A stretch of DNA of 33,321 bases. Origin: Desulfobacteraceae bacterium (GTDB lineage Bacteria; Desulfobacterota; Desulfobacteria; Desulfobacterales; Desulfosalsimonadaceae). The notes beneath the pieces were generated by a model. That model saw nothing but the letters and a program-made list of their open reading frames with translations, did not search any database and had not been told where the DNA came from. A program made the position numbers and the translations under genes. The number at the start of each line of letters is the position of its first letter. The stretch's first letter is position 1. Location of the stretch: NCBI GenBank assembly GCA_011389935.1, contig JAABTJ010000029.1, positions 1 through 33,321 of the forward strand, read 5' to 3'. Below are positions 77 through 32,800 of this stretch, in pieces.

Positions 77-93
77 ATGAATAAGGAGGTGGC

Positions 94-2413: not shown

Positions 2414-4465
2414 TTACAGCAGAAACGGCACCATCAGCAGGGCAACCACGTTGAGAATCTTGATCAACGGGTTGACCGCGGGGCCGGCTGTATCCTTGTA
2501 GGGGTCGCCTACGGTGTCGCCGGTAACGGCCGCTTTGTGGGCTTCGCTGCCCTTGCCGCCGAAGTAGCCGTCTTCGATGTATTTCTTTGCGTTATCCCAT
2601 GCTGCACCACCGGTGGTCATGGAGATGGCAACGAAAAGACCGGTTACGATACTTCCGATAAGCAGACCGCCCAGGGCAACGGGGCCCAGCAGGAAGCCGA
2701 CCAGAAGCGGCGCGATGACCGGGATAAGCGCCGGAATCATCATTTCTTTCAGCGCAAACTTGGTTACGATATCAACGCATGCACCGTAATCCGGTTTTGT
2801 GGTACCTTCCATGATGCCGGGAATTTCCCGGAACTGACGGCGTACTTCTTCAACAACCGCACCACCTGCGCGACCGACGGCCTGCATGGCAATGGAGGTG
2901 AAAAGGTACGGCAGCAGACCACCGATGAAAAGGCCGATGATGACGTTAACGTTGCTCAGGTCGAACCGGATCTGGTCAACGACATCCGAAGTTCCGCTGA
3001 CAATGGCAAACTCCTGCACGAAGCAGGTAAACAGTACCAGGGCGGCCAGACCGGCGGAGCCGATGGCATATCCCTTGGTAACGGCCTTGGTGGTGTTCCC
3101 GACAGCATCCAGGGGATCGGTAACAGCGCGCACGCTGTCGTCGAGGCCTGCCATTTCAGCGATGCCGCCGGCGTTGTCCGTGATCGGGCCGTAGGCGTCA
3201 ATGGCGATGACCATACCCGTCATTGAAAGCATTGCCGTGGCTGCGATGGCGATGCCGTAAAGGTCTGCAAAAGAGTATGCAAGACCGATGGCAACGCAGA
3301 TGGCAAGAACAGGAGCTGCAGTTGCCTGCATGCTGATGCCGAGACCGGCGATGATGTTCGTGCCGTGGCCGGTGGTGGAGGCTTCTGCCAGATGCTTGAC
3401 CGGGCCGTATATGCCGGTATAGTATTCGGTGATAATGACGATGAGAACGGTCAGTACCAGTCCGACCAGGGCGGCGTAGAACAGGTTGATCGCCGGAATG
3501 TCGCCGATCATGTCGACCTGGGTGACGGTAAAGGCGTAAAACGCGATTGCCGCAAGAATGGCGGATCCGAACATGCCCTTGTACAGCGCGCCCATGATGT
3601 ATTCATCTTTTCCGAGGCGGACAAATGTCGTGGCGATAACAGAAGCGATGATAGAAATCGCGCCGAGGACCAGCGGGTAAAAGGTTGCGATCGGATCTTC
3701 CGGATAAAACAACGCGCCCAGAAGCATGGAGGCCACAACGGTTACGACGTATGTTTCGTAAAGGTCGGCAGCCATGCCGGCACAGTCACCGACGTTGTCA
3801 CCGACGTTGTCGGCGATGGTCGCGGGGTTTCTCGGATCGTCTTCCGGGATGCCGGCTTCCACTTTGCCCACGAGGTCCGCACCGACGTCAGCGCCCTTGG
3901 TGAAGATACCGCCGCCAAGACGGGCAAAAATAGAGATCAAGCTGCCGCCAAAGCCCAGGGCGACCAACGGCATGATGTGCGCCTTGGTTTCGACCACTTC
4001 AGCATTGCCCAGCAGGTAAAAGAAATACCCGGCAATCGAGGTCAACGCCAGGCCCGCCACCAGCATACCGGTTACCGAGCCGCCGCGGAACGCCATTTTC
4101 AGGCCTGCTGCCAGGCCGTCCTTGGCTGCTTCAGCAGTGCGCACGTTGGCAATAACCGAAACGCGCATGCCAATGTAGCCGGCCAGATACGACGCCACAG
4201 CGCCGATCAGAAAGCCAATGGCGGTTTTGGGGCCCAAAGACAGCCAGATCACGATCAGGATCACGATGCCGACGGCACCCATTGATTTGAGCTGCCGGTT
4301 CAGGTAGGCGATTGCGCCTTCCTCGATCGCAGATGCAATCTGGATCATCTTTTCGTTGCCCTTGGGTGCGTTTTTGATCATCCCGGCGACGATCAGGGAA
4401 TACAGAATTCCGATCGCTCCGATGATCATTGCCGTCAAGGGGATGTTTGCCATCAATGTTTCCAT
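2414..4465 (-). CDS. hppA: Membrane H+-translocating pyrophosphatase, K+-independent type
   Basis: Couples pyrophosphate hydrolysis to proton pumping across the cytoplasmic membrane. The protein has 683 residues with about 16 hydrophobic segments. The substrate-binding signature is at about residues 192-232 ([20 protein letters not shown], then [15 protein letters not shown]). The second acidic cluster is [15 protein letters not shown] at about 424-438, and the third is [15 protein letters not shown] near the C-terminus. Lys460 in [10 protein letters not shown] is the residue known to distinguish K+-independent from K+-dependent enzymes (Ala there); since known Na+ pumps are K+-dependent, proton pumping is the best call. 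The start is set by GGGAGGAAGT directly before the ATG. Monocistronic, with a strong terminator downstream. Confidence 0.96.
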
Positions 4466-4516
4466 ACTTCCTCCCTTAAAACATTTTGGTTAATAGAACA
4501 CATACTGCGTATCAAT

Positions 4517-4538
4517 GCCTTGCCAAAGCCTTGCCAAA
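4517..4538 (-). promoter_or_regulatory. Tandem 11-bp repeat with sigma-54-like spacing upstream of hppA
   Basis: GCCTTGCCAAA occurs twice in tandem. Read on the minus strand it gives two TGGCA elements with the GG-N10-GC spacing of a sigma-54 promoter (4521-4536), which would put a start about 45 bases before hppA. Direct repeats CTGCGTAT at 4505-4512 and 4545-4552 bracket it. It could instead be a regulator site; low confidence. Confidence 0.3.
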
Positions 4539-4567
4539 TTTTTCCTGCGTATTGTTTTGCCTTGCGG

Positions 4568-5170
4568 TTATCCATTGTACCGGTTCATCGCTGCCGCTTG
4601 CCCCTTTTCCAGGACGGTCGACACGGCTTCGCGGACGGTCTCGAAAATCTCTTCGTAATGCTGCATTTCCCGTTTTGAAAATTTACCGAGCACGTAATCC
4701 GCTGCATCCGGACTGTCGTGCGTTTCAGGTGTTTCGGTAAAGGCTTCCGGACGTCCTATACCGATTCTGACACGCGTAAAATCATTTGTTCCCAGAGCAT
4801 CGATGATCGATCGGACACCCTTGTGCCCTCCATGCCCTCCTTTCACTTTAATTTTGATTCTTCCGATATCGATATCCATATCATCGTGGATGATCAAAAT
4901 ATGCGCCGAGCCGATGCCGAAATACCGTGCCAGCTGATATACAGGAGGACCGCTCCTGTTCATGAAATCCATGGGTTGGGCCAGCACCGTCCCCACGTTG
5001 TTGATAAACCCGCGGCCATAACGGTTTTTGAACATGGTCCGTTTCAGTCCAATATCATGATGCGCGCCAAGCCTGTCAATGGCCATGAAGCCGACATTGT
5101 GGCGCGTCTGCTGATATTTCCGCCCCGGATTGCCGAGCCCGGCGATGAGCCATATGCCGCTGCCGGTCAT
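4568..5170 (-). CDS. pth: Peptidyl-tRNA hydrolase
   Basis: Releases tRNA from peptidyl-tRNA dropped by ribosomes. The 200 residues match the bacterial Pth family: GLGNPGRKYQQTRHNVGF at residues 11-28 (Asn14, catalytic His24), MDFMNRSGPPV (substrate-binding Asn), LIIHDDMDIDIG (Asp) and GGHGGHKGVRSII. It lies 39 bases after rplY on the same strand, the usual rplY-pth arrangement, and is last in the run degP-ispE-tRNA-prs-rplY-pth. No terminator was seen in the 102 bases before hppA. Confidence 0.96.
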   Translation of the reverse strand: MTGSGIWLIAGLGNPGRKYQQTRHNVGFMAIDRLGAHHDIGLKRTMFKNRYGRGFINNVGTVLAQPMDFMNRSGPPVYQLARYFGIGSAHILIIHDDMDIDIGRIKIKVKGGHGGHKGVRSIIDALGTNDFTRVRIGIGRPEAFTETPETHDSPDAADYVLGKFSKREMQHYEEIFETVREAVSTVLEKGQAAAMNRYNG

Positions 5171-5209
5171 GCCGGATCCGGCCGATGAACCGGTTCAACG
5201 CCTCCGGTA

Positions 5210-5896
5210 TTACTCGTCTTCGCTTTTGCCTTCCGATGCATCCGCTTCTTCGCCTTCTTCGCCTTCTTCACCCTCTTCGCCTTCTTCTTCCTCTTCAGGC
5301 GCTTCTTCCGCGGCCTCCATCTTCGGGCTGACAACAGTTACCACGGTAAAGTCAACCTCATACGGAATTTCCACGTCTCCTTCCACCTCGATTTCACTGA
5401 CATGAATGGATTCCCCGATTTCCATATTCGACACATCAATGTCAATTTGTTCCGGGATGTTTGCGGGTAGACAGTAAACTTCCAGCTCCCGCCGGATTAT
5501 CTGGAGAATGCCCCCTTCTTCGACCCCTTTGGGGGTGCCGATGGTGTTTACGTAAACCATGGTGGAGATCTTTTTGTCCATGCTTATTTCAAGAAGATCC
5601 ACGTGGAGATAGTGCGCCTTGACCGGGTCGATCTGCAGCTCCTTGACCATCACGGTCTTTTTGTATGGCTGGCCGCCTTTTATATCCAGATTGATAAGCC
5701 CCCGGGAATACTGCGGGCTGTTGAACATTTTTTCAAGTTCGCTGGATTCCACGGATATCCTGATATTATCTACGCCGGGTCCGTATAGGATGCCGGGAAT
5801 CCTTCCCTGCGCGCGGAGCGACCGGGCCGCGCTCTTGCCGACATTGTCCCGTGTTTGTGCGGTTAATTTTGCAATATCCAAAAGTTTTGCCTCCAT
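5210..5896 (-). CDS. rplY: 50S ribosomal protein L25 / general stress protein Ctc
   Basis: Binds 5S rRNA in the large ribosomal subunit. This is the long two-domain (Ctc/TL5) form. The L25 domain is at about residues 1-95 (RDNVGKSAARSLRAQGRIPG, ILYGPG), followed by the beta C-terminal domain to about residue 190 (LEVYCLPANIPEQIDIDVS, IHVSEIE). The last 35 residues are an extremely acidic tail with GEE repeats, common in long-form L25 of this group. It sits 21 bases after prs and 39 before pth, and is expected to be cotranscribed with them. Confidence 0.95.
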   Translation of the reverse strand: MEAKLLDIAKLTAQTRDNVGKSAARSLRAQGRIPGILYGPGVDNIRISVESSELEKMFNSPQYSRGLINLDIKGGQPYKKTVMVKELQIDPVKAHYLHVDLLEISMDKKISTMVYVNTIGTPKGVEEGGILQIIRRELEVYCLPANIPEQIDIDVSNMEIGESIHVSEIEVEGDVEIPYEVDFTVVTVVSPKMEAAEEAPEEEEEGEEGEEGEEGEEADASEGKSEDE

Positions 5897-15124: not shown

Positions 15125-15232
15125 TTCATTTTTTTCCTGTTGAGATTATGAATGGTAGCTTAACAATAATGATCCGCCTTGAAAATTCAAGGCTTTTTTC
15201 CGTCTCGTCGCAACGTGCGCGGATGGTCATTT

Positions 15233-15449
15233 GGTTCCATTTCCCCCGTCAGGGGGGCGGTGCTGCCTTTGGCAACTGTGATGGGCCTGGGATCGCTCTA
15301 CGGCTCGATACGCGGCGTCCTGAAAACTCGCCCTGCGGGCTCAAACAGTTCAGGACGCCCGGCGTATCTTCGCCAAGAGCGATCATCAGGCCATCCCAAT
15401 GTTGCCGTCAGGCAGCACCGCCCCCCTGACGGGGGAAATGGATCATTTA
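15233..15449 (+). repeat. Giant imperfect palindrome, family P, copy A1
   Basis: A 217-bp hairpin. The outer arms are a perfect 29-bp inverted repeat (15238-15266 with 15417-15445). Further stems use CGCTCTACGG/CCAAGAGCG and CGTCCTGAA/TTCAGGACG. The apical loop is a GCCC-TGC-GGGC mini-stem flanked by AAAACTC and TCAAACA. The ends read GGTTCCATTTC and GAAATGGATCATTT. Non-coding: an apparent 97-residue frame crosses it but has no start signal. About 29 bases upstream and 95 downstream also match copy A2. Confidence 0.9.
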
Positions 15450-15551
15450 TATGCCGGATGCATACGCCGTAAAGCAAATAGAAACCCCTGCTGTCACGAC
15501 TGGAACCGAATCCACGCAGCCAGCAATGCTTTTCCAGGCATGCGATGGTCT

Positions 15552-15764
15552 AAATGACCAATTTCATTGGGGGGGGTGTGGTATTGCCCGAAGGCAACAT
15601 TGGGAGAGATTGGCGGTCGCTCTTGGCGAAGTGGAGCCAAACATCCTGTATTGTTTGAGCCCGCAGGGCGAGTTTACAGGATGTGGCGGAACAAGCCGTA
15701 GAGCGACCCCAATCTCTCACAGTTGCCAAGGGCTATACCACACCCCCCCCAATGAAATTGAACC
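15552..15764 (-). repeat. Giant imperfect palindrome, family P, copy B1
   Basis: The reverse complement aligns with A1 through the core (GGCAACTGTGA, CGCTCTACGGC, the CTCGCCCTGCGGGCTCAAACA apex, CTTCGCCAAGAGCG, CCCAATGTTGCC), but the arms differ: ATTTCATTGGGGGGGG pairs with CCCCCCCCAATGAAAT, and the central stem is CATCCTGTA/TACAGGATG. It is oriented head-to-head with A1 across a 102-base spacer. Ends AAATGACC and, on the far side, GAACC. Confidence 0.9.
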
Positions 15765-15814
15765 TTTTGGGTAAACACGCATTGCGGGAGTTGATCTGTG
15801 TTTGTTTGGTCCAT

Positions 15815-17975: not shown

Positions 17976-20465
17976 TTATGTGCAAAGACGCAGACAAACC
18001 TCCCTTTTTGCGAGGCTCATCCGGATGGCCGGGGCGAAAAGCGGCTTTTCCCCCGCCATTTTGTCCAAAAAACACCTGATTTCTTCGTGTCGCTCAAGGC
18101 TGCCATGGGGGGTGATTGCGACAATAAGGCGTTCGAATATGATGGGGTGGATTTTCCGGAGTTCCGGCAGATTTCCGGTGAACCAGTCCCACAGGGTGTC
18201 TTTGGCATGGGGGTTCATGGCCATCCATGCGACGGGCAGATGCATGTTGCGCTGGGGCACCTCCGCCAGGACAAACTGTTTTGCCCTTTCGATAAGGTCG
18301 TCCTGAGAGAAACAGCCCATACCCCGGAGGACATTCTGGCGCTCCTGTTCGCTGGTGGCGGTTTCCAGCCGGTAGGCGAACCAGTCAAAGGCCTTGTCCC
18401 CCTCCAGAAATGCCCCGGCCTGAAGAGCGGCACGGCAGATATCCGGGTGAACCTCCCGGCCGCTGATCAGGCGATCGAACTGCTGTGCCGCAGTCTGCGA
18501 CACTTCGGGCATGTCAAGGAGCACGCCGTACCAGAGCGCCTTGTTTTTCAACCGCAGCATGCCATGGGTGTCTTTTTCTTTCGGGAGGCACCCGGTGCGT
18601 GCAAATGTGCTCTCCAAAAAATCCGCCATGGTTTTTCGGACTTTTTCGCGCGGTTTTTCCGCAAAGACCAGGTACAGGAAAAACAGGCTGTCCAATATTA
18701 CCGAGAGGGGGAGGGGGTCGTTTTCACCACTGAAATGCCGCAGGTCGGCTATCCATTCGTCTGCATCCAGGAGCCCTGCCTTGACAAGGGCGAACCGGTC
18801 GCTTATCAGGCCGCGGCGGTCGGATGCCGGAAGGTTTCTGTCCTGGGCCATGCGGCAAAGATGGCGCCAGTTGTCCGCATCGTCGTAGCGGGTGCGGTAA
18901 AATCCATTGTGGCCGTCATTGATTTTGTATGCGATCACATCGGGGGCAAGGTCAATGGCAATATTTTGCCCGTCAAACGTTTGGGTGATACGCCTTTGCC
19001 CGCCGTTTGCGTCAAACAGGCGGATGACCATGGGTATCGGCCATACCGTCTCATTTTCCCGGATCGGCAGAAAGGAGAAGCGCCTCTGGGAGAGCCGGAG
19101 GGTGTTCCCGGAGCGAGCCGCTTCGACAAGGGGATGGCCGGCCTGTTTTACCCATTTTTCCATGATGCGGGATACCGGTTCATCCGATTCCGCTTCCAGG
19201 GCATCCCATAGATCACTGCTGTTGGCGCATCCGTACGCATGGGTCTCAAGATACCGGAAAAGCCCTTCGGCAAAAGCGTCCTTTCCTGTGAAGCCTTCGA
19301 TCTGCCGGAGGATGCCCGCTCCCTTGCTGTAAATGATGGGCGCCGTTGAGCTGTTGATCACCACATGGTCGCCGCCGGGAATTTCGATGGAAAGGGTTTC
19401 GCCAAGAGCGTCCCGGTTCATTGCGGGTTCAACTTGCGATTCGGTGAAGGCGTCCCAGATTTGCCATTCCGGATGGTAATGATCGATAACGCCGTAGCCG
19501 AAGTAGGTGGCGAAGCTTTCGTTCAGCCACAGATATTTCCAGTCGGATGGAGTGACCAGGTTTCCGAACCACTGGTGCGCCATTTCATGGGCGATCACTT
19601 CACAGATGCGTTCTTCGCTTTCCGTATCGGTATTTTTCGGGTCATATAGAAGAAGGTTTTCCCGAAAGGTGATCGCCCCCCAGTTTTCCATGGCGCCGAA
19701 GGCGAAATCAGGCACCGCCACCAGGTCGATCTTGGGCAGCGGGTAAGGTATACGGTAATAGTTTTCGCAATAATAGAGGGCTTTACGGGCGAATGCCAGT
19801 CCGTAGCGCACCTGGCTTTCCATTTCGGGGAAAATGGCCGCCCGTACGCGCCGGTCCAGGTCATCGACCAGAATCCGGAATTCGCCGATGCCGAAAAACA
19901 GGAGGTAGGTCGACATGACCGGGGTCTGTTGGAATTCGACCTGTTTTTTCCCGCTGTCTAGATATATTTCCGATGCCGGCGGCATGTTTGCGATGGGCGT
20001 CAGGTGCGGATCGATAAGGAGCACGAATTCAAAGGTTGCCTTGTACAGGGGGTGGTCGATACACGGAAAAGCTCGCCGGGCATCGCTTTCCTGGAACTGC
20101 GTGACCGCGATGACGCGGGTTTTGCCTCCCCGATGATACGAACTACGATAGAAACCGGCCATTTTATCGGAGATTTCCCCGTAATAATCGATGATCATCT
20201 CAAAATCCCCAAAGATTGCCTCCGGCAGGAAGATGGATAGGATTTCCTCTTCGGGGTCTATCCGAAAAGCAAGGTCAACGGCGTTCTCAGCCCCTTTCAG
20301 GATGCACCGGGTGATTGACAGATCAATGCAGTTCAGTCGCACGGTATCGGTTTTTTCAGCGACGGACAGCGACAGTTCGAGCCTGCCGGCAAAACGGAAG
20401 TGGGTCATGTCCGGTTCTATGGTTACCCGGTAATTGACCGGACAAATGTTTGTTTCATGCGGCAT
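17976..20465 (-). CDS. M1 family zinc aminopeptidase
   Basis: Removes N-terminal residues from peptides, cytoplasmic (no signal peptide). It has 829 residues: beta-rich N-terminal domain, exopeptidase motif FGAMENWGAITF, zinc motif HEMAHQWFGNLVT with the distal Glu in WLNESFATYFGYG, the catalytic Tyr region NSSTAPIIYSKGAGIL, then a long helical C-terminal domain with an ERAP/APN-like layout (LIKINDGHNGFYRTRYDD-type region at about 530). Spacing to the dapF-like gene is 40 bases, so they are probably cotranscribed. The promoter region carries a TATAAT box and an inverted repeat. Confidence 0.94.
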   Translation of the reverse strand: MPHETNICPVNYRVTIEPDMTHFRFAGRLELSLSVAEKTDTVRLNCIDLSITRCILKGAENAVDLAFRIDPEEEILSIFLPEAIFGDFEMIIDYYGEISDKMAGFYRSSYHRGGKTRVIAVTQFQESDARRAFPCIDHPLYKATFEFVLLIDPHLTPIANMPPASEIYLDSGKKQVEFQQTPVMSTYLLFFGIGEFRILVDDLDRRVRAAIFPEMESQVRYGLAFARKALYYCENYYRIPYPLPKIDLVAVPDFAFGAMENWGAITFRENLLLYDPKNTDTESEERICEVIAHEMAHQWFGNLVTPSDWKYLWLNESFATYFGYGVIDHYHPEWQIWDAFTESQVEPAMNRDALGETLSIEIPGGDHVVINSSTAPIIYSKGAGILRQIEGFTGKDAFAEGLFRYLETHAYGCANSSDLWDALEAESDEPVSRIMEKWVKQAGHPLVEAARSGNTLRLSQRRFSFLPIRENETVWPIPMVIRLFDANGGQRRITQTFDGQNIAIDLAPDVIAYKINDGHNGFYRTRYDDADNWRHLCRMAQDRNLPASDRRGLISDRFALVKAGLLDADEWIADLRHFSGENDPLPLSVILDSLFFLYLVFAEKPREKVRKTMADFLESTFARTGCLPKEKDTHGMLRLKNKALWYGVLLDMPEVSQTAAQQFDRLISGREVHPDICRAALQAGAFLEGDKAFDWFAYRLETATSEQERQNVLRGMGCFSQDDLIERAKQFVLAEVPQRNMHLPVAWMAMNPHAKDTLWDWFTGNLPELRKIHPIIFERLIVAITPHGSLERHEEIRCFLDKMAGEKPLFAPAIRMSLAKREVCLRLCT

Positions 20466-20495
20466 GGAGAAAACCCTTTTGTGTTTTGTTCACGT

Positions 20496-20521
20496 TAACG
20501 GTTGCATAAACCGTTATTATA
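20496..20521 (-). promoter_or_regulatory. Candidate -10 box with overlapping operator for the M1 aminopeptidase
   Basis: On the minus strand a perfect TATAAT (20516-20521) is followed at once by the inverted repeat TAACGGTT-TATGC-AACCGTTA (20496-20516), which would cover the transcription start, 31-51 bases before the ATG. No good -35 is seen, so an activator or weak promoter is possible. TATAAT also reads on the plus strand. Confidence 0.4.
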
Positions 20522-20639
20522 ATCGCATTCGGAAAAGGATGAAAGCATTAAAGCATTCTTCGCAACATTCTTTGCTCCAAGCGTCCCGGTATTGATGCAA
20601 CCGTCGTTCGTTCGCGGCAACGCGTGCGGGTGGTTATTC

Positions 20640-20854
20640 GGTTCCATTTCTCCCGGCAGGGGGGCGGTGCTGCCTTTGGCAACTGTGATGCCCCGGGATC
20701 GCTCTACGGCTCGATACGCGGCGTCCTGAAAACTCGCCCTGCGGGCTCAAACAGTTCAGGACGCCCGGCGTATCTTCGCCCAGAGCGATCACCAGGGCCT
20801 CCCAATGTTGCCGTCAGGCAGCACCGCCCCCCTGCCGTGGGAAATGGATCATTT
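20640..20854 (+). repeat. Giant imperfect palindrome, family P, copy A2
   Basis: Very close to A1, with an identical apex and central stem. In the outer stem A1 has GTCAG/CTGAC and A2 has GGCAG/CTGCC, a compensated pair change. The left flank (about 20611-20639) and right flank (to about 20950) also match A1, so the two copies descend from one larger unit. Confidence 0.9.
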
Positions 20855-21166
20855 ATATGCCGGATGCATCCGCCGAAAGGCAAATAGAAACCTCTACTTT
20901 CGGGCCTGGAACCGAATCTCCACAGCCCGCAACGGTTTTCCGGGAATGCAAAGATTACAATCCATCTTACCATTCTGATTTCATTCCATTCACTTGTTTC
21001 CATTTCGTTTTTTCGGGATCGAAATCGGTTTTTTCAAACCCACGGAACACGACATCTTCCTTGTGACCTATTCTTTTTTTTCGATTGCGATACCGATAGT
21101 GATTTCGATTTCGATTATCCAAGAAAAAGATTGGGCTGAAAAATAATTTTGAGATGGCTTTTAGTA
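20855..21166. other. Spacer of palindrome pair 2, with an AT-rich insert
   Basis: The first about 95 bases match the spacer of pair 1 (15450-15545). From about 20950 to 21166 the sequence is unlike pair 1, visibly AT-rich, with runs of T and short GATTTCGATTTCGATT repeats. No gene is seen in it on either strand. Confidence 0.6.
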
Positions 21167-21376
21167 AAATGACCAATTTCATTGGGGGGCTGTGGTATTT
21201 CCCGAAGGCAACATTGGGAGGGATTGGCGGTCGCTCTTGGCGAAGTGGCGCCAAGCATCCTGTATTGTTTGCGCCCGCAGGGCGAGTTTACAGGATGTGG
21301 CGGAGCAAGCCGTAGAGCGACCCCAATCGCTCACAGTTGCCAAGGGGAATACCACAGCCCCCCAATGAAATTGACC
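21167..21376 (-). repeat. Giant imperfect palindrome, family P, copy B2
   Basis: Nearly the same as B1: outer arms CAATTTCATTGGGGGG/CCCCCCAATGAAATTG, central CATCCTGTA/TACAGGATG and the GCCCTGCGGGC apex. Head-to-head with A2. Its end lies 55 bases before the methyltransferase start. Confidence 0.9.
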
Positions 21377-21431
21377 GCTACCGTATGTTGTTTTTCTTGC
21401 AAAAATGGCTGTTTTTGCTTAAAAGATTTCC

Positions 21432-22238
21432 ATGGGATACATATTTGACGCAGAGGATGCGAAACAGTACGAAAAGTGGATGGCCGATGAAAAGAACCGG
21501 GCGGTTCTCGATCTGGAGACGCGCCTGATGGCGTCGATGCTGCGGCCGGTATGCGGGGAAAGCCTGCTTGATGTCGGTTGCGGCACGGGGGAAAGCATCA
21601 GTCCGTATCTCGGCAAGGGAATCAACCTGACCGGGATCGATGCGTCGCCTGCCATGCTCGAGATCGCACGGGAAAATCTCGGCCACCGGGTCGATTTCCA
21701 CCTTGGGTTTGCCGAGGACCTGCCGTTTTCCGACAACGCCTTCAACCATGTGAGCCTGTTTTTGACGCTTGAATTTGCAAGGAATCCCGAAGAAGCCGTT
21801 GCAGAAGCCTGCCGGGTGGCAAAGGACTCTGTGTTTATCGGAATATTGAACAAGCATTCGGCGTATGTGACGCAATTGAGAGTAAAACGCTTCCTGGTGC
21901 CGTCAATGTACCGGAAGGCCCGTTTTTTTAGCATCGGGCAGGTCAGGCAAATGGTTTTTAACCGGCTCGGGCGCGTTCCTTTTTCATGGAAGACGGTGCT
22001 GCAGTTTCCGGGCACCTCACGCGGCCCTTGTTTTCATATCGAGGCGGGAGGGTATTTATGGAAAAGCCCGTTCGGCGCGTTTGCCGGCATAAAGGCCATG
22101 CCCGTGCCCCGCTTCCAGGCAATGCCGTTGACATTGAAAACAAGGATCGAGCAGAAAGGGGTCGCCGGCCGCCGCGTGGCCAGCTGCCATGAATACAACA
22201 GGGAAACGGAAAAGGACGAAAACGGAAATTACCGATGA
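21432..22238 (+). CDS. Class I SAM-dependent methyltransferase
   Basis: A 268-residue methyltransferase of the Methyltransf_11 (UbiE-like) type. Motif I is LLDVGCGTGESI at about residues 45-56, the acidic motif II is LTGIDASPAMLEIA, and the post-II region is FAEDLPFSDNAFNHVSLFLTLEF. The C-terminal 60 residues are basic and unique to it. Substrate is not predictable. No clear Shine-Dalgarno is seen. TTGCAA (21397) and TAAAAG (21420), 17 apart, would give an almost leaderless transcript; alternatively the promoter is tied to the B2 palindrome just upstream. The gene is followed 100 bases later by amrS on the same strand. Confidence 0.85.
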   Translation: MGYIFDAEDAKQYEKWMADEKNRAVLDLETRLMASMLRPVCGESLLDVGCGTGESISPYLGKGINLTGIDASPAMLEIARENLGHRVDFHLGFAEDLPFSDNAFNHVSLFLTLEFARNPEEAVAEACRVAKDSVFIGILNKHSAYVTQLRVKRFLVPSMYRKARFFSIGQVRQMVFNRLGRVPFSWKTVLQFPGTSRGPCFHIEAGGYLWKSPFGAFAGIKAMPVPRFQAMPLTLKTRIEQKGVAGRRVASCHEYNRETEKDENGNYR

Positions 22239-22262
22239 AAAGGGGGTGGAACGGGTAAAAGG

Positions 22263-22291
22263 GTTGACATTCCGGCCTCCGGGTTCCAGAT
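22263..22291 (+). promoter_or_regulatory. Candidate promoter of the radical SAM gene
   Basis: A consensus TTGACA at 22263-22268 is followed 17 bases later by CAGATT (three of six -10 matches). It lies in the 100-base gap before the gene at 22339, which also has a strong GGGGGGAG ribosome binding site. Confidence 0.35.
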
Positions 22292-22338
22292 TCTTACCAG
22301 AGAAAGGATTGCCAACGTTTTTTTAGGGGGGAGAAGCC

Positions 22339-23361
22339 ATGGAAGCATTACTGTATGAGCGGATCAAGGAGAATGTCGTCCAATGCGGGCTTTGCAACCA
22401 TCGGTGCGTAATAAAAAACGGCAGGCGCGGCAAATGCAGCGTCCGGGAAAATAATAACGGCATCCTTGAAACACTGGTGTATGACAAAATCATTGCCAGG
22501 AACATCGATCCCATTGAAAAAAAACCCCTTTTTCATTTTTATCCCGGAAGCCTCTCCTATTCCATCGGCACCGTGGGGTGCAACTTCGGGTGCCGGTTCT
22601 GCCAGAACGCCGATATCGCACACATGGCGACGGATCATTCCGGCCGGATCATGGGGCAGGCTTTTACACCCGAACAAATGGTGGACGAAGCGCTCCAGGC
22701 GGGTTGTACGAGTATTTCCTACACGTATACCGAGCCCACGGTTTTTTTTGAACTGGCCCGAAGCACCGCCGAGCGCGCCCATGACAAGGGGCTGAAAAAT
22801 GTTTTCGTTACCAATGGGTACATGACCACGGCTGCCCTTGAAATGATCGCGCCGTATCTGGACGCGGCAAATGTCGATTTGAAGGCGTTTACGGAGGAAT
22901 TCTACGAAACCCAGTGCAGCGCAACGCTTGCGCCGGTGCTGGAGTCCCTTCGCACCATGAAAAAGCTGGGTATTTTTATCGAGGTAACCACCCTGTTGAT
23001 TCCCGGATTGAACGACAGCAGGAGCGAGCTTGAAAGCCTGGCGGGTTTTATCGCCTCGGAGCTGGGGGATCAAACGCCATGGCATGTCAGCCGGTTCCAC
23101 CCGACCTACCGGCTGACCGATCGCCCGTCGACCAGCCCGTCAACGTTGATGGAGGCGAGGCAGATCGGGATCGACAAGGGGCTTGCCTATGTGTACACCG
23201 GAAACATGCCGGGGCTTGGCACGGAAAACACTTCCTGCCCCGGCTGCGGAAACGATGTGATTGTAAGAAGCGGTTTTACGGTGCTGGAAAACCGGATTTC
23301 GCATAACCGGTGCCGGAATTGCGGCGCGCAAATTCACGGGGTGGGCCTCGGGGAGATGTAG
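22339..23361 (+). CDS. amrS: AmmeMemoRadiSam-system radical SAM enzyme
   Basis: A 340-residue radical SAM protein of the AmrS (PflA-like) family. It has an N-terminal zinc-type cluster CGLCNHRC (Cys16, 19, 23) plus Cys33, then SYSIGTVGCNFGCRFCQN with the cluster-binding Cys81, 85 and 88. The barrel includes SISYTYTEPTVFFE, VFVTNGYM and DAANVDLKAF. The C-terminus has a second Cys4 ribbon, CPGCGN and CRNCGAQIHGVG. The partners AMMECR1 and MEMO1-like proteins, which give the system its name, are not in the window. The reaction is unknown. The start is set by GGGGGGAG six bases before the ATG. Confidence 0.92.
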   Translation: MEALLYERIKENVVQCGLCNHRCVIKNGRRGKCSVRENNNGILETLVYDKIIARNIDPIEKKPLFHFYPGSLSYSIGTVGCNFGCRFCQNADIAHMATDHSGRIMGQAFTPEQMVDEALQAGCTSISYTYTEPTVFFELARSTAERAHDKGLKNVFVTNGYMTTAALEMIAPYLDAANVDLKAFTEEFYETQCSATLAPVLESLRTMKKLGIFIEVTTLLIPGLNDSRSELESLAGFIASELGDQTPWHVSRFHPTYRLTDRPSTSPSTLMEARQIGIDKGLAYVYTGNMPGLGTENTSCPGCGNDVIVRSGFTVLENRISHNRCRNCGAQIHGVGLGEM

Positions 23362-23375
23362 CCGCCCGGATACGG

Positions 23376-23867
23376 TTATGATGGCGTTTGATGTGGTCGG
23401 TGTTCGCATTCTTCGGGGGGCGCAGGCGGCGGTCCCGCTCTTTTCACCGCAAGGATTACGGGTTTGTACTTGTCTGTTTTTTTTGCCCTTCGTTCCATCA
23501 GCAGAATCACGCCGATGGCGATAAAAAAAGCTGCAAAACCGAGGCCCGCTGCCCCGGCCGACCGGTCGATGCCGTAGGAAGGGGCAAACGCATCCCCGAT
23601 GGCCGCGCCGGCGACCAGCACAATGATCGGGAAAAGGTAGAGGAGAAAAGAGAGCTGCAGCAGGCGCAGGGATTTGAAATCGAGCAGGACCGTATCCCCT
23701 TCTTTTGCACCGACCGGGTTCACCGCCAGAAAGGCCATGTCTTTGCCGCCGCCCAGGCTGTTGCACAGATTCCTTTCGGAGCATGCCGCACATCCTGCGG
23801 TTCGTTCCGTGCGCACCAGGGCGTACTCTCCCGAAAGGCTTACTACTATTGCGGTTTCCTTGGCCAT
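23376..23867 (-). CDS. rseC: SoxR-reducing system / RseC family membrane protein
   Basis: A 163-residue protein with an N-terminal soluble part holding GCAACSERNLC (Cys26, 29 and 35), the Cys motif of RseC/MucC proteins. Two transmembrane helices follow at about residues 70-92 and 104-124, then a basic Pro-rich tail. In enterobacteria RseC is part of the Rsx/Rnf-linked system that reduces SoxR; here it lies 13 bases after an rnfB fusion gene, which supports a role with the Rnf electron-transfer machinery. It converges on amrS with a 14-base gap. Confidence 0.88.
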   Translation of the reverse strand: MAKETAIVVSLSGEYALVRTERTAGCAACSERNLCNSLGGGKDMAFLAVNPVGAKEGDTVLLDFKSLRLLQLSFLLYLFPIIVLVAGAAIGDAFAPSYGIDRSAGAAGLGFAAFFIAIGVILLMERRAKKTDKYKPVILAVKRAGPPPAPPEECEHRPHQTPS

Positions 23868-23880
23868 GGGTAATAACGCG

Positions 23881-25953
23881 TTATCCCGCTTTTTTCATTT
23901 CCCGGCGCTGGTGGTCCGGCATGTAGCATATGATGCCGCATTGCAGGCACCGGAATGCTTCGGTTCGCGCCCCTTCTTCGGAAAAGCCCAGTTCAATTTC
24001 AGGGCATTTTTCAGAGACCTCTGATACTGCGCAGGCCGGCATGATATTCCGCTTGATGGGATTGACATTTTCCAGCGCGTCGACATCCTGCATTTCCGTG
24101 TCGGCGTTCACCACTTTTTCCGGAAGCGCGAGGTCCATATCGTACATGATCATATGAACGGACGCAGCCGATCGCCTGCCGCCTGCAATGGCGCGGATGG
24201 CGGCGCTGTAGTCCGTAATCGGTTCGCCGGAGGAGAGGAGCCCCTTCTCTTCGCTGTAAAACGGATTGTTATACGGCTGGATGCCTTCCCAGTAGACCGG
24301 TTCGATTCCAAGCGCCGCTTCTTCCCCGGTGCCTGCCGTCCCGGTTCTTCTGAAAATCATTTCCGGCAGCCTGCCGGAATCGATGAACAGGTTTCCTGCC
24401 GCAACAACATATGCTTTTTTACTTGTGCGGTCCTCGTACTCGATGCCTGTAAGCCGGTTGTCTTCCCCGGTCAGTTTCGTGATGGACGCATTGAAAACCA
24501 GGTTTGCACCGCTGTTTTCAAGCTGTTCCATCTGTTTGGACGCAATTGCCAAGGTCTCTTTTGGCTCACGGAATACGAGGAAAATGTTTTCGGCGCCGCG
24601 TTTTCGGCAGATGTCAACGGCAACCGGCGCAACCTCGGCCCCCCCGGCGATGACAACATCCGGATGAATGGAGACAGCCCCGTCCTTTTCCATGCCGGTT
24701 TTGATGAGATCGATAAGCAGGTGAACACCGGGCACAGGTTCCTCGACCGCTGCGCCACCGAGTCTTTCCGCCCGGCTGTCGAAACCGCCGGATGCAAGGA
24801 GCACGGTTTCAAATTCGTCCTGGAGCAGGGAGGAGATGGTGAAATCACGGCCGAGTGCAGTATTGGTAAGGGTATTGACGCCCAATTCACGGACGCCCTC
24901 AATATCCCAGTCGAGAACATCCGGAGGGAGCCGGTAGTTCGCAATGGCTTTCCGGAGCAGGCCGCCAAGCTTCTCCTGCGCTTCGAACACGGTTGGAGAA
25001 TGTCCCAGGCGCGCGGCAAAAAATGCGGCTGACAAGCCTTCCACGCCGCCGCCGACAACCGCTATCTTGCGTCCGGTGGCCGGCGCCGTATACGGCTGGG
25101 AACGCTTTCCGCTTTCCATTTCAACATCGGCAGCGTATCGTTTCAGAAAGTTGATGGCGACCGGTTCATCCACCAGATTGCGTCTGCATTCATTTTCACA
25201 GGGTCTCGGGCAGATCCTCCCGATAATTGTCGGAAAGGGATTTCGTTCCTTGATCACCCGGACGGCCCCCGAATAATCCTGTTCGCTGATATGCCGGATG
25301 TATTCGCATATATTTATTCCGGCGGGGCAAGCACGCTGGCAGGGGGTGGTACAGTCGTCCGTGGTATATTCCTGCAGAATGCGGCGGGTAACCGATGAGA
25401 GTTTTATGATGTGCTTGGGGCATACCCTTTCGCAGGTGCCGCAACCCGTACACTTGTCCTCCAGGACGACGGGGAGGCCGTCTCTGCCCATGACCATTGC
25501 GTCAAAAGGGCATGCGCGCACGCAGGAGCCCAGACCCAGGCATCCGATATCGCATATTTTCATGCCTCCATAGAGCAAAGATGCGGCCTGGCAATCGCTC
25601 AGGCCTTTATATTCGAATTTTTTCGCCGCTATTTCAACACCGTAAGTACATCCGGGGCGTGCGATGTCGGGCTCTTTTGCTTCAATGGTCATTCCCATGA
25701 CTGCCGCGATGGTTTCGGCAAGGTCGCTTCCCCCGGCAACGCAGGAAGCCGGTGAGGCCTTGCCTTTGACGATTGCTTCCGCGTTCGGGCCGCACCCGGG
25801 ATAGCCGCACCCCCCGCAGTTGGCGCCGGGCAGAAGCTCTTCAATCTGCTCCACCAGGGGATCCACGTAAACGTAAAAAACTTTGGATGCCACGGCCAGG
25901 CCGGAACCGATAATGATTCCCAGACCTCCCATCATAAGAATTGCAACGATCAT
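23881..25953 (-). CDS. rnfB: RnfB fused to a GltD-like flavoprotein module
   Basis: Residues 1-190 are RnfB, the ferredoxin-facing subunit of the Rnf ion-pumping complex: one N-terminal membrane helix, the cluster motif NCGGCGYPGCGPN with Cys71, and two [4Fe-4S] motifs at Cys134-148 and Cys168-178. Residues about 195-690 resemble the NADPH glutamate synthase small subunit family: CTTPCQRACP and ICPRPCENECRR cluster motifs, FAD loop VVGGGVEGLSAAFFAARLG, a second dinucleotide loop VVIAGGAEVAPVAVD in which the third Gly is Ala, and a final FRCLQCGIIC. It presumably passes electrons between NAD(P)H or another donor and the Rnf clusters; that is inference. No rnfA, C, D, E or G lies upstream. GGAG precedes the ATG. 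Confidence 0.92.
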   Translation of the reverse strand: MIVAILMMGGLGIIIGSGLAVASKVFYVYVDPLVEQIEELLPGANCGGCGYPGCGPNAEAIVKGKASPASCVAGGSDLAETIAAVMGMTIEAKEPDIARPGCTYGVEIAAKKFEYKGLSDCQAASLLYGGMKICDIGCLGLGSCVRACPFDAMVMGRDGLPVVLEDKCTGCGTCERVCPKHIIKLSSVTRRILQEYTTDDCTTPCQRACPAGINICEYIRHISEQDYSGAVRVIKERNPFPTIIGRICPRPCENECRRNLVDEPVAINFLKRYAADVEMESGKRSQPYTAPATGRKIAVVGGGVEGLSAAFFAARLGHSPTVFEAQEKLGGLLRKAIANYRLPPDVLDWDIEGVRELGVNTLTNTALGRDFTISSLLQDEFETVLLASGGFDSRAERLGGAAVEEPVPGVHLLIDLIKTGMEKDGAVSIHPDVVIAGGAEVAPVAVDICRKRGAENIFLVFREPKETLAIASKQMEQLENSGANLVFNASITKLTGEDNRLTGIEYEDRTSKKAYVVAAGNLFIDSGRLPEMIFRRTGTAGTGEEAALGIEPVYWEGIQPYNNPFYSEEKGLLSSGEPITDYSAAIRAIAGGRRSAASVHMIMYDMDLALPEKVVNADTEMQDVDALENVNPIKRNIMPACAVSEVSEKCPEIELGFSEEGARTEAFRCLQCGIICYMPDHQRREMKKAG

Positions 25954-26153
25954 AGTTTACTCCGGTAAAAGTATTAAATGGCAAATCACCGCTTACCCGT
26001 TCGCATCATGGCATAAAAAATCAAGCCTTTCCTATACCATGCTTTTTTTGCCATGTCCAATTGAAAAAAACGAATACGGAGCCCCCTTCCCACAGGGTCT
26101 TCCTGCAAATTGACGCGGGTTTTTTCCGGCGCTTTGGGAAGTGATTTGTATGC

Positions 26154-28520: not shown

Positions 28521-29558
28521 ATGGATGCGGCAAGGTTTTGGTCATGTCGGTTGTTCAGTGTTGACGGCTTCGTAAAAAGTCCAATATCTGCGTTGCGTAC
28601 AATCTTTGAAGAATCTCACGTACGGCTAAGTACGCTCAATCCTTCAAAGATTGCACGCGCCTTGATCTTGAACTTTTACCTTTGCCGTCCAAAACCGACT
28701 TTTTACGAGTTCATCCGTGTCGGCCGGATTTTTCTTGCAGCCCTGTTTTTGACATGGTGTTTCTCCGGGCCGGCAGTGGCATATTCCCCATTGGAATCCG
28801 ATGAGCTGGAGCAAAAAGACCGCGACACGCAACAACAGGTTGATGAAGCGGTGGAATTCGATGAATTCGATGAATTTGATGAATTTGACGGCTTTGACGA
28901 TTTTGATGAATTTGATGAATTTGACGAATTCGATGAATTCGATCGGCATGATGAAGCGGTGTTTGATCCGCTTTCCGGTTACAACCGGGCCATGACCACA
29001 TTTAATGACCGGCTGTATTTTTGGGCGGTCAAGCCGGCCGCCACCGGATACGCCAGGATCACCCCGGTGCTGGTGCGGCAGTCTGTAAACAACTTTTTCC
29101 GAAACCTGGGATATCCGGCACGTTTCATCAACTGCATTCTGCAGCTCAAGGGAGAGGATGCAGTCAATGAAACCGCGCGGTTTCTACTGAATTCAACGGC
29201 TGGTATGGCGGGATTTTTTGACCCGGCCCGGGATTCGCTCGGCATTGAACCCCACGACGAAGATTTTGGCCAGACTCTCGGCCGGTACGGGTTGGGCGGC
29301 GGATTTCACCTTGTATTGCCGTTTCTGGGTCCGTCCAACCTCCGGGATGCAACAGGGCTTGTGGTTGACATGTTCATGGACCCGGTTTTTTACATGGAAG
29401 GATATTATACGGGGAGCATTTCCTGGACGGTGGACGGCTTTAACTACGCATCGCTTCACATAGGCGAATATGAAAGAATAAAAAACGAGGCGATCGATCT
29501 TTACGCTTTCCTGCGAAATGCATATGAGCAGAACCGTGAAAAGAAAATAAGGGAATAG
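28521..29558 (+). CDS. mlaA: MlaA (VacJ)-family outer-membrane lipid-asymmetry protein with acidic EFD repeat
   Basis: MlaA extracts misplaced phospholipids from the outer leaflet. The core is clear: FDPLSGYNRAMTTFNDRLYF, NNFFRNLGYPARFIN, RFLLNSTAGMAGFFDPA, DEDFGQTLGRYGLGGGFHLV and LPFLGPSNLRDATG. Before it lie a hydrophobic signal (VGRIFLAALFLTWCFSGPAVA) and about 30 residues of EFD repeats. The start is uncertain: the best signal is GGGGTGG followed by ATG at 28521, but then some 70 residues ahead of the signal peptide come from the R repeat (an ATG at 28491 would be longer). TTG codons at 28662 and 28668 are the only closer candidates. No lipobox is evident, unlike the enterobacterial lipoprotein. 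mlaC follows after 4 bases. Confidence 0.88.
   Translation: MDAARFWSCRLFSVDGFVKSPISALRTIFEESHVRLSTLNPSKIARALILNFYLCRPKPTFYEFIRVGRIFLAALFLTWCFSGPAVAYSPLESDELEQKDRDTQQQVDEAVEFDEFDEFDEFDGFDDFDEFDEFDEFDEFDRHDEAVFDPLSGYNRAMTTFNDRLYFWAVKPAATGYARITPVLVRQSVNNFFRNLGYPARFINCILQLKGEDAVNETARFLLNSTAGMAGFFDPARDSLGIEPHDEDFGQTLGRYGLGGGFHLVLPFLGPSNLRDATGLVVDMFMDPVFYMEGYYTGSISWTVDGFNYASLHIGEYERIKNEAIDLYAFLRNAYEQNREKKIRE
28562..28715. repeat. Palindromic repeat (family R), full copy inside the mlaA frame
   Basis: Arms TGACGGCTTCGTAAAAAGTC (28562-28581) and GACTTTTTACGAGTTCATC (28697-28715) are inverted. An inner pair AATCTTTGAAG/CTTCAAAGATT is also present. The left half matches the reverse complement of 11-76. 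It covers the region where the mlaA start should be. Confidence 0.8.
28854..28943 (+). repeat. Ten-unit EFD-type tripeptide tract in mlaA
   Basis: Ten consecutive 9-bp units encode EFD four times, GFD, DFD, then EFD four more times. The codons vary (GAATTCGAT, GAATTTGAT, GAATTTGAC), so the tract is protein-conserved rather than a fresh slippage product throughout. It lies between the signal peptide and the MlaA domain. Confidence 0.95.
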
Positions 29559-30253: not shown

Positions 30254-32800
30254 ATGGCAATGCCTACCGAACCGATGAAATGGTTTTACGATCGGATTTT
30301 GTTCAAACACCCGATCGTCGTTCTGCTGGGTTTTTTTGTTGTGATGGGCGTCCTGGCCGCAAATGCCAGGAATTTCCAGATCGAGGCCTCCGCGGAGACG
30401 CTCATTGACCAGACGGATCAAAACTATCTGTATTTTCAAGAGGTAATAGATACATACGGGTTTGATGATTTTGTGTTCATCACCTATTCCCCCCACGAGG
30501 GGGATCTTTTATCCGATCCGGTTCTATCGGAGATTGCATCGCTGCGGGATGAAGTAAACGCCCTTGAAAGCGTCGATTCGGTGATGTCCCTTCTCGATGT
30601 GCCGCTGCTCGAAAGTCCGCCGCGCCCTATCGATGAAATAGTGAAGAATCTCCGGACCCTGCGCGATCCCGGCGTCGATATGGAATTGGCCAGGACGGAA
30701 TTCAAAACCAGTCCCCTTTACAGAAATCTTCTGGTGAGCCCGGACTTTACAACAACCGCCTTGCAGATCAATTTCAAGCCCGATGAAATCTATGAATCCC
30801 TCTGGGAAAGGCGCCAGGATCTTCGGCAGAAAGAAAGCGAGGAAGGGCTCTCGGCAACGGAAAAGCAGGAATTCGCCGAAGTCAGAAAGAACATCCGCGA
30901 GCGTCAGGGGGTCATGGACGCCAATCGGCACCAGGATATTCAAAAAATACGCGCGGTCATGGATCAATTCGCGGACGGGGCAGATCTGTTTCTCGGAGGG
31001 ATCAGCATTATCGCCGATGACCTGATGGCGTTCATCCGCTCCGATCTCAGGGTTTTTTCGCTGGCCGTCCTGGCGTTTCTCATCGTTGCGCTGGGTGTTA
31101 TTTTCAGGAGCTTTCGCTGGGTGGCGCTTCCCATTTTGTGCTGTGCGTTCTCGGTGATCGCCATGACCGGACTGCTCGGGCTTTTCGGCTGGCAGGTCAC
31201 CATTGTTTCGGCAAATTTCGTTGCCCTGCAGTTGATCTTTACCATGGCGATTTCCATACACATCGTCGTCCGTTACCGGGAGATCGCTGCGGACAACCCG
31301 GATGCGGACAACCGCCATATCACGCGGGAAGCGGTTCTGGCAATGAAGACGCCCATTTTTTATGCCGGGCTCACCACCATGGCCGGCTTCGGTTCCCTGT
31401 GGTTTTCGGATATCCTGCCGGTGGTGACGTTCGGATGGATGATGTCCGCCGGTATTTTCACGTCCCTGGTGGTGACCTTTGTCTTTTTTCCGGCCATGTC
31501 CGTGCTTCTGCCCGGCAGGGGGCCCACGCCCGCCGCCGGGGCCCCAAGGTCCCGGTTTGCGCTGCCGGCGATCCTGTCTGATTTTACCGCAGCCCACGGA
31601 CCAGTGGTATTGATTGTGAGCACCCTGGTTTTCATCATCGGCGTTGCGGGGATCTTCCAACTGCGGGTGGAAAATTCCTTTTTGAATTATTTCAAAAAGT
31701 CGACGGATATCTACCAGGGGCTCCTGGTTCTTGACCGGGAGCTCGGCGGGACCACCCCCCTGGATATTATCATCGGTTTTGATGAGGACCGAGATAGTGA
31801 GAACGTCGCCGGCATGGCGGCGGCATCGGAGGACGAGTCTGACGAATTCGATGAGTTCGACGAATTCGATGAGTTCGACGCGCCCGGGGGGGATGGCCGG
31901 TACTGGTTCACCCAGCACCGGCTGGAGCGTATCGAGGCGGTTCACGACTACCTTGATGAGATCGAATATACCGGCAAGGTATTGTCCCTTGCGGTGTTAA
32001 ACAAAATGGCCCGGCGGGTGACCGGGTCTGCGCTCGATACATTTCAGTTGAACCTGGTGTTCAACCAGTTTCCCGAGGAGTTCAGAAAGATTCTGGTTGC
32101 GCCGTTCGTGTCCATAGAAAAAAATGAAACGCGCATCAATCTTCGGGTAATCGATTCGGCCGAGAACCTGCGGCGCAACGAACTCATCGGGCAAATACGC
32201 CGCGATTTGACCGAAGACTTCGGTTTCAGGGCCGAAAACGTCCATCTTACCGGCATGATGGTCCTGTACAACGATGTTCTCCAGCAGCTTTTTTCCTCCC
32301 AGATCCTGACCATCGGTGTGGTCCTGGCGGCGCTTCTGGTCATGTTTCTTGTTCTTTTCCGATCTGTAAAGGTCGCACTTATCGCGCTGTTTCCGAACAT
32401 TCTCTCCACAAGCGTTGTTCTGGGCATGCTCGGATGGCTTGACATTCCGCTCGATATCATGACCATCACGATCGCCTCGGTCAGCATCGGCATCGCGGTG
32501 GACAATTCCATTCATTACATTTACCGATTCATGCGGGAATTTGCCAAAACCGGCGACTATATGGAGAGCATGCGCCGCTGCCACGGAAGCATTGCCTATG
32601 CCCTGTATTACACCTGTATCACCATTGTGGCCGGGTTTGCGATTCTATCCTTGTCCAATTTCATTCCGACGATTATTTTCGGCCTGTTTTCCGGGCTTGC
32701 CATGCTTATCGCCCTGATCGGGGCGCTGACCCTTCTGCCGCGGCTGATCATTCTTTTCAAACCCTTCGGGCCGGAGGGGGAAACACCGGCGGAAGCCTGA
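30254..32800 (+). CDS. RND/MMPL-superfamily transporter with periplasmic EFD tract
   Basis: A membrane pump with the two-fold RND layout: TM1 (HPIVVLLGFFVVMGVLA), a large periplasmic loop, TM2-6 (from LRVFSLAVLAFLIVALGVIF), then TM7 (GPVVLIVSTLVFIIGVAGIF), a second periplasmic loop holding DEFDEFDEFDEFD, and TM8-12 with ASVSIGIAVDNSIHYIYRF, the MMPL-type acidic motif in TM10. About 849 residues, near the size of HpnN-like lipid exporters. Likely proton-driven lipid transport together with MlaA and MlaC. The frame is open from 30113 inside mlaC. I prefer ATG 30254; 30218, 30260 and 30275 are alternatives, none with a strong ribosome site. Confidence 0.9.
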   Translation: MAMPTEPMKWFYDRILFKHPIVVLLGFFVVMGVLAANARNFQIEASAETLIDQTDQNYLYFQEVIDTYGFDDFVFITYSPHEGDLLSDPVLSEIASLRDEVNALESVDSVMSLLDVPLLESPPRPIDEIVKNLRTLRDPGVDMELARTEFKTSPLYRNLLVSPDFTTTALQINFKPDEIYESLWERRQDLRQKESEEGLSATEKQEFAEVRKNIRERQGVMDANRHQDIQKIRAVMDQFADGADLFLGGISIIADDLMAFIRSDLRVFSLAVLAFLIVALGVIFRSFRWVALPILCCAFSVIAMTGLLGLFGWQVTIVSANFVALQLIFTMAISIHIVVRYREIAADNPDADNRHITREAVLAMKTPIFYAGLTTMAGFGSLWFSDILPVVTFGWMMSAGIFTSLVVTFVFFPAMSVLLPGRGPTPAAGAPRSRFALPAILSDFTAAHGPVVLIVSTLVFIIGVAGIFQLRVENSFLNYFKKSTDIYQGLLVLDRELGGTTPLDIIIGFDEDRDSENVAGMAAASEDESDEFDEFDEFDEFDAPGGDGRYWFTQHRLERIEAVHDYLDEIEYTGKVLSLAVLNKMARRVTGSALDTFQLNLVFNQFPEEFRKILVAPFVSIEKNETRINLRVIDSAENLRRNELIGQIRRDLTEDFGFRAENVHLTGMMVLYNDVLQQLFSSQILTIGVVLAALLVMFLVLFRSVKVALIALFPNILSTSVVLGMLGWLDIPLDIMTITIASVSIGIAVDNSIHYIYRFMREFAKTGDYMESMRRCHGSIAYALYYTCITIVAGFAILSLSNFIPTIIFGLFSGLAMLIALIGALTLLPRLIILFKPFGPEGETPAEA
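31841..31879 (+). repeat. EFD tract in the RND transporter
   Basis: GAC followed by four 9-bp units encoding EFD; at DNA level two identical 18-bp blocks (GAATTCGATGAGTTCGAC). It lies in the second large periplasmic loop. The same tripeptide as in mlaA three kilobases upstream. Confidence 0.95.

Follow-up and report, generated by a model that had tools for sequence, protein, structure and literature searches.

Among described systems, REPINs come closest in logic to the repeats analysed here (PMC3116915). TnpA-REP is described as recognising a bulge plus a tag (PMC8266576), and both heterodimers and 'tail-tail' dimers of REPs are on record, with stems of 5–13 bp for the REPs covered there (PMC3733652). 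The elements found in the window, i.e. the whole 33,321-nucleotide stretch of DNA that was analysed, and in related genomes resemble REPINs in several ways: two imperfect inverted hairpins with a variable spacer in an intergenic position, doublets that are better preserved than singlets, conserved stem mismatches, a conserved motif at one foot, and one strand that is distinguished from the other. They differ from REPs in that the hairpin is ~210 bp with 53–77 consensus pairs against a REP stem of 5–13 bp, in that the foot (consensus AAAATGAYC and AACCTTWT in 65 copies) lacks GTAG and CGTC, and in that no Y1 gene lies beside the copies; spacers of 30–547 bp and tens of copies per genome set them apart from REPINs. 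We claim no membership of REP/REPIN for them, as the tag, the stem size and a neighbouring Y1 gene were each looked for and not found.

Other comparisons are more distant. Galileo, a foldback element of eukaryotes, is alike in features that are on record for it (PMC3573991): long inverted ends, two-TIR and solo copies, chimeric ends and a link to inversions, in which it has a role. The elements here, however, are bacterial, each end is a conserved hairpin, no target duplication is seen and no DDE transposase is known. ERIC is a short intergenic palindrome with MITE-like features, and bacterial MITEs and ERIC-type repeats are single palindromes. RU-1, a short intergenic repeat of 127 bp, also has MITE-like features (PMC2759123). 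The present repeats share the short intergenic character of bacterial MITEs and ERIC, but their unit consists of two different palindromes and is without target duplication. The attC sites are imperfect hairpins as well, with unpaired bases that set the strand, and they follow one another in arrays. Integrases have been compared with TnpA-REP (PMC8266576). Although imperfect hairpins are common to both, those described here are larger, stand in facing pairs rather than arrays, rarely carry a gene and have so far been linked to no integrase.

The hairpin pairs of the window

The window is contig C21 of assembly G000 (2.84 Mb, 58 contigs, 94% complete), from an uncultured relative of sulfate reducers, and holds three head-to-head pairs of imperfect ~210-bp hairpins, at 15227–15770, 20634–21383 and 32880–33321, with the following parts and syntenic counterparts in G001, the sister species, and in G002 to G004 of the genus.

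15227–15450, + (canonical) strand: hairpin A1, left half of pair 1; 214 bits; the - strand folds better, only slightly
15451–15549, no strand: spacer of pair 1; 99 bp, longest ATG ORF 39 aa
15550–15770, - strand: hairpin B1, right half of pair 1; 236 bits; the + strand folds better
15227–15770, no strand: whole of pair 1; inverted at the same syntenic spot in G001, hairpin not found there in G002, G003 and G004
20634–20856, + strand: hairpin A2; 94% identity to A1; the - strand folds better
20857–21164, no strand: spacer of pair 2; first ~95 bp like spacer 1, then ~200 bp of other sequence
21165–21383, - strand: hairpin B2; 90% identity to B1; the + strand folds better
20562–21387, no strand: stretch with all of pair 2; 35 bp in its place at the syntenic spot of G001
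32880–33108, + strand: hairpin A3, subfamily alpha; the - strand folds better
33109–33218, no strand: spacer of pair 3; 110 bp
33219–33321, - strand: hairpin B3; cut by the contig end

The original prediction had counted six copies in three gaps; the three pairs are present, with five copies complete and the sixth, B3, cut by the contig end. It had also described an A copy on the plus strand followed by a B copy aligning as its reverse complement, and this arrangement is seen in all three pairs, the comparison of A with the reverse complement of B giving 74–78% complementarity. B3 probably continues on contig C39 (positions 1–167), judging by synteny with G001. Folding energies of the five complete copies are -128 to -164 kcal/mol on either strand, ~13 to 18 sd below mononucleotide shuffles (100 for each hairpin; means -65 to -82, sd 4.3–4.9).

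By eye, the ~200-bp remainder of spacer 2 resembles a second repeat of other spacers (AATTTTGAGATGG end). Another dispersed repeat, of the GACTTTTTACGAAGCCGTC type, lies at window positions 1–77 and 28561–28637, with 94% complementarity between the two places, and by eye it also occurs within the spacers of the C35 and C44 hairpin pairs and in the gap of G002 and G004 that corresponds to pair 1. Nine-base repeats at 28824–28960 and 31823–31887 would encode EFDEFD-like acidic tracts. Six contig ends of G000 (C2, C13, C21, C24, C39, C51) lie inside hairpins, so that the hairpins probably break short-read assembly.

Copies, pairing and anatomy in the genus

Copies were searched for by BLAST, iterated nhmmer and a covariance model, R1 (222 positions, built from 42 copies). 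G000 has at least 41 copy places, namely 39 (150 of 530 first-look candidates were scored) and two contig-end pieces; by synteny with G001 these pieces, C39:1 and C51:1, are probably the missing parts of the counted hairpins C21:33219 and C13:1, which would leave 39 hairpins. Sixteen pairs, all in the order '+ then -' and with spacers of 70–547 bp, stand beside five lone copies and four further copies whose partner side is 800 bp or less from a contig end. In a combined count over G000, G001, part of G002–G004 and one further contig, with some G004 and G005 loci left out, there are 39 '+-' pairs, three '--' (two of these being touching copies), and no '-+' or '++', together with 29 lone copies and a further 18 near the end of a stretch. 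Facing in 39 of 42 pairs against an expected one quarter gives p = 2e-20, a value that overstates the evidence because many pairs are common to the species by descent. Lone copies score below paired ones, with medians of 159 versus 198 bits in G000 and 157 versus 185 in G001 (one-sided p = 0.02 each, excluding copies near contig ends and, in G001, the weak matches C108 and C109 and one fragment). A possible long-spacer pair was seen in G003 (L194, 1818–3502), where a '+' and a '-' hairpin stand 1.26 kb apart around a 274-aa ORF that by eye is ferredoxin-like and then nitroreductase-like.

These counts bear on two claims made from the window alone, that the hairpins always occur paired and that the pair, not the single hairpin, is the unit. 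Strict pairing fails on the five lone copies of G000 and on single matches in other families, but pairing is nearly general, and across the G000 genome the copies are mostly paired (16 pairs against five lone), with every pair in the same orientation. That the pair behaves as the unit is supported: facing pairs dominate, lone copies score lower and pair 2 is missing as a whole in G001. The original interpretation as a whole is supported in part, as pairing is not strict; mobility is read from the comparison of genomes.

The stem of each hairpin is AT-rich at its base, the middle is variable and rich in GC, and the apex is conserved. The consensus contains 53 pairs, or 71–77 with strand-neutral pair choice, and 42 of the 53 show double-sided changes that keep the pair. 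Fifteen comparisons of close copies (1098 pairs) gave 24 pair-keeping double changes, 85 one-sided changes and four broken pairs, and paired sites differed at 6.4% against 12.5% for unpaired ones. Over the whole family, by comparison, conservation within the hairpin is as high in unpaired as in paired columns (mean top-base frequency 0.77 and 0.76), which we read as loop recognition. In the 65 copies chosen by at least five of seven matches to the stem base, the foot motifs are WWYAAAATGAYCAATTTC (inner, consensus AAAATGAYC) and GAAATTGAACCTTWT (outer, consensus AACCTTWT), so placed that the unit is bounded by WWYAAAATGAYC ahead of the inner stem base and by AACCTTWT behind the outer stem base; beyond them are only weak peaks of 0.39 bit at -25 and 0.48 bit at +18. 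Copies other than near-duplicates differ widely, and their subfamilies alpha, beta and gamma are read from nearest neighbours rather than from a tree. The two halves of a pair are never more than 0.72 identical (27 pairs), while copies reach 0.97. An avoidance of equal ends was considered and is only suggestive, since random re-pairing gives a maximum that low in 6% (G000) and 2.4% (G001) of trials.

The two strands are not equivalent. With strand-neutral pairs the canonical strand has 47 G-T and 115 A-C among 3185 cells, and the other strand therefore 115 G-T and 47 A-C; the 73 copies of G000 and G001 give 80 and 190 in the same comparison. The non-canonical strand folds better in 66 of 67 copies with RNA parameters and in all 67 with DNA parameters, and the one-sided changes that separate related copies show the same tendency (17 versus 34), although formal p-values for this asymmetry are too small as the copies are related. 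In both hairpins of a pair the better-folding strand reads outward from the spacer; in the window this is the + strand for B1 and B2 and the - strand for A1, A2 and A3. Strand neutrality, suggested by a count on the canonical strand alone (30 G-T versus 48 A-C), is withdrawn: RNase P and a reverse-complement control led to the recount with strand-neutral pair choice, which shows the clear asymmetry. As RNAalifold pairs favour G-U, only shares of MFE pairs were compared with RNase P. The G-U share is 5.3% on the favoured and 3.2% on the canonical strand, against 9.0% in RNase P of relatives, and since reversed RNase P (9.6%) and shuffled hairpins (12.0%) are also high, these shares do not distinguish RNA from single-stranded DNA. 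Strand-biased mutation, or alternatively RNA, could give rise to the asymmetry.

Syntenic sites in related genomes

Empty sites in relatives, which the original prediction had made a check on the pair, do occur. At the site of pair 2, window positions 19536–20561 and 21388–26068 match G001 L144 1–1027 and 1063–5768, so that 826 bp with the pair in G000 face 35 bp in G001. No hairpin was found at this site in G004, and G003 has hairpin pieces at both contig ends, which leaves both gain in G000 and loss in G001 possible. The left flank was considered as having been copied along with pair 2, the flanks of pairs 1 and 2 being ~75% alike over ~30 bp by eye, and this is too weak.

At the site of pair 1, window 15255–15769 matches G001 L092 1447–954 on the minus strand inside a plus-strand block, i.e. 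the pair is inverted. The outer 40 bp agree with this: the right end in G000 scores 0.85 against the left end in G001 and 0.67 against the right, and the left end 0.70 against the right and 0.64 against the left. Spacer 1 scores 0.57 inverted and 0.49 direct, with 0.54 as the best of 200 shuffles. At the corresponding site of G002, G003 and G004 no hairpin could be detected. Where G000 has pair 1, G003 has a vapBC toxin-antitoxin pair identified by Pfam (L170 1276–1910), with an outer-end-like motif of 16.1 bits on its left (shuffles: 95% at 12.9, maximum 18.2) and no significant second motif on its right (7.8 bits, when unrelated G004 repeats reach 12.2). Further along G001 L092, ~1.85 kb (3607–5459) lie between the matches to window 17935 and 17995 and are missing in G000.

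A hairpin lies at the syntenic G001 flank for 12 of the 16 G000 pairs; the C20, C4 and C6 pairs have no match among the G001 stretches compared, which were chosen around G001 hairpins, so absence is not implied. From this synteny and the wide differences between copies, activity looks low. Orientation is the same in G000 and G001 for C44:131465 and C55, and pair 1 is the only clear in-place inversion. Content has nevertheless changed at several of these sites: at C21:32880, C24 and C14 the left hairpin is alpha in G000 and gamma in G001, and any right hairpin present is beta in both genomes (in G001, C14 has a single hairpin, and in G000, C24 is without a left flank), while C32 is alpha/beta in G000 and gamma/alpha in G001. 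Beta and gamma copies are closer to each other within a genome than to the syntenic copy, whereas the C44, C11:53462, C57 and C35 copies have the syntenic copy as their best match. The picture suggested is one of old addresses, some with turnover of content. The sequences beside the C2, C13 and C51 copies correspond to those of G001 C33 and C44 in swapped combinations, with breakpoints at the pairs, the result expected of a single recombination event involving two beta copies; an assembly error would give the same in a genus represented here by MAGs or draft assemblies only, with contig ends that fall within hairpins. Addresses that stay fixed while their content changes provide natural experiments in which to follow the persistence and recombination of long palindromes in bacterial chromosomes.

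Readings of the pairs and their reach beyond the genus

We favour, at a probability of about 0.45 and hence tentatively, the reading of the pair as a non-autonomous mobile element of REPIN-like logic that a hypothetical enzyme acting in trans would move whole, as folded single-stranded DNA. The facing pairs, the decayed singles, the absence of target duplication, the foot tag, the conserved loops and the strand preference are what point to REPIN logic. The moving unit would comprise the two giant hairpins and the spacer, the predicted enzyme would recognise the favoured strand that reads outward from the spacer, and the AAAATGAYC foot beside the 5' end of that strand would work like the REP tag. 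Such an enzyme might be of the HUH/Y1 kind or another single-strand recombinase. Lone hairpins would be remnants, and the changed halves and the rearrangement are likely due to ectopic recombination from one copy to another. Two Y1 transposase genes (PF01797) are present in G000, on C12 and C33, each with a weak DnaA-like C-terminal match below the Pfam cut-off; ~1.5 kb on either side of them contains no palindrome above the scan threshold, no R1 match lies nearby, and we regard them as candidate movers only.

If the favoured reading is right, the REPIN principle extends to hairpins that are several times larger and have no REP tag, and a wider range of single-strand elements and enzymes awaits discovery. 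A bolder version, which we consider rather unlikely, would make these repeats a new class of single-strand mobile element built from interchangeable giant hairpins, whose pairs would move, flip in place, trade halves (with the ends staying different), occasionally take in a gene and remodel the chromosome, by way of a recombinase that reads the foot tag and internal loops on the outward strand.

The heterotypic pairs, lone hairpins, changed halves and rearrangement breaking at pairs also parallel Galileo in Drosophila, and the closeness of beta and gamma copies within a genome (C44, C11:53462, C57 and C35 behaving otherwise) would fit the same origin: a relic of a foldback-like DNA transposon, in which each hairpin is the long TIR of a DDE-type element and the two-TIR leftovers have been reshuffled by ectopic recombination and gene conversion. 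We hold this to be unlikely. Target duplication is not above its control, the longest direct match averaging 3.9 in the 32 scorable of 39 pairs against 3.6 at mismatched sites, though age could hide it; moreover, each end forms a hairpin of its own, in which internal loops are conserved and the strands are asymmetric, and a DDE element is not known to need this. The longest spacer, 547 bp, is too short for the usual transposase gene, and no autonomous copy is therefore seen.

It is likewise improbable that the hairpins act as RNA, either as two divergent structured RNAs or as an insulator that puts a large hairpin into the transcripts leaving the spacer in either direction. The paired changes, the occurrence of G-U rather than A-C on the strand that folds better and the AT-rich AAAATG stretch just upstream of the 5' foot of that strand would all suit such a role, but no -35 region is conserved upstream of the foot in the 65 copies, and the sole promoter-like site found near pair 1, in scans that perform near chance, lies outside the pair. 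The G-U share of the favoured strand, 5.3% against 9.0% in RNase P, also speaks against RNA, as a weak measure given the reversed and shuffled controls above. The flanking genes occur in all orientations, as obtained by greedy ORF choice: four tandem, four divergent, four convergent and four unclassified around the 16 G000 pairs, and eight tandem, two divergent and one convergent in G001. Rfam 15 finds only one tRNA in the window, apart from a sub-threshold miRNA-family match over B1 (33 bits versus a cut-off of 140) that we take as chance. The view that this is not a named family stands in that neither Rfam 15 nor phages and plasmids (blastn) gave a match, and no description of the hairpins turned up in the limited selection of papers searched. 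Terminators or promoters are ruled against by the varied gene orientations, the lack of a -35 signal and the near-chance scans, and an origin from phages or plasmids was set aside as neither these nor IMG/VR, searched there with one exact pattern, contained a match.

Least probable, and to us very doubtful, are integron-like or invertase-like recombination sites with the spacer as cassette cargo and only rarely a gene, for although the in-place inversion, the different half at a fixed site, the 135-aa GNAT acetyltransferase gene in the C2 spacer and the gene-like 63-aa ORF without a Pfam match in the C32 spacer would suit them, the 42 spacers yield no more than this one gene with Pfam support and this one gene-like ORF (besides four ORFs of 52–69 aa), the hairpins face each other unlike the succession of attC sites, and the vapBC pair of G003 has one outer-end-like motif without a significant second. 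Gene cargo as the main point of the pairs was rejected, as it concerns one or two of 42.

The hairpin core reaches beyond the genus. BLAST matches occur in 10 of the 40 genomes searched, G000 included, among them all five other members of the genus. R1 matches, counted by the model rather than by single inspection, occur in at least 21 of 116 genomes and at least 21 of 297 sampled from the phylum (~7%; G000 is included in both), lower bounds because large searches score few candidates per genome; the family is thus searchable with R1. The closest copies in named MAGs are from Desulfobacteraceae, Desulfobacterales and one Desulfobulbaceae; we take the CSSed and GSL MAG sets to be soda-lake and salt-lake samples. 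Exact-pattern matches in a Nitrospirae and a Chloroflexi MAG reach 25 bits with the profile (L062) or no score (L073).

In G034 and G100, complete genomes of other families with 43 and 44 R1 matches, the matches are more than 1.2 kb apart, the exception being a run of four on the same strand in G034, and a palindrome scan of ten loci in each found no second hairpin, a scan that also missed the known hairpin in three of the ten G100 loci. Within the family, G009, of another genus, has a second palindrome of 108–160 bp at ~80–150 bp distance in three of ten loci (L109 1265–1424, L123 1297–1411, L126 1250–1357); these are 81–94% alike and unrelated to the hairpin over its length, and may form two-palindrome composites with another partner. 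G393 has two weak facing R1 matches 366 bp apart. Overall the hairpin core has a wide distribution, and this genus is the only one for which facing pairs of related hairpins are shown; with single hairpins of the same core elsewhere in the order and model matches in ~7% of the sampled phylum, strict pairing seems to be characteristic of the genus. In G034, hairpins that share the apical core (e.g. L116–L143) carry 17–18-bp ends, CAACTTTCGACTTTCAT, which led to no autonomous element. At one mismatch or fewer these ends have 270 sites in that genome (137 forward, 133 reverse), and among the exact matches listed each of the 48 below 2.9 Mb is on the + strand, which may reflect a bias by replication strand.
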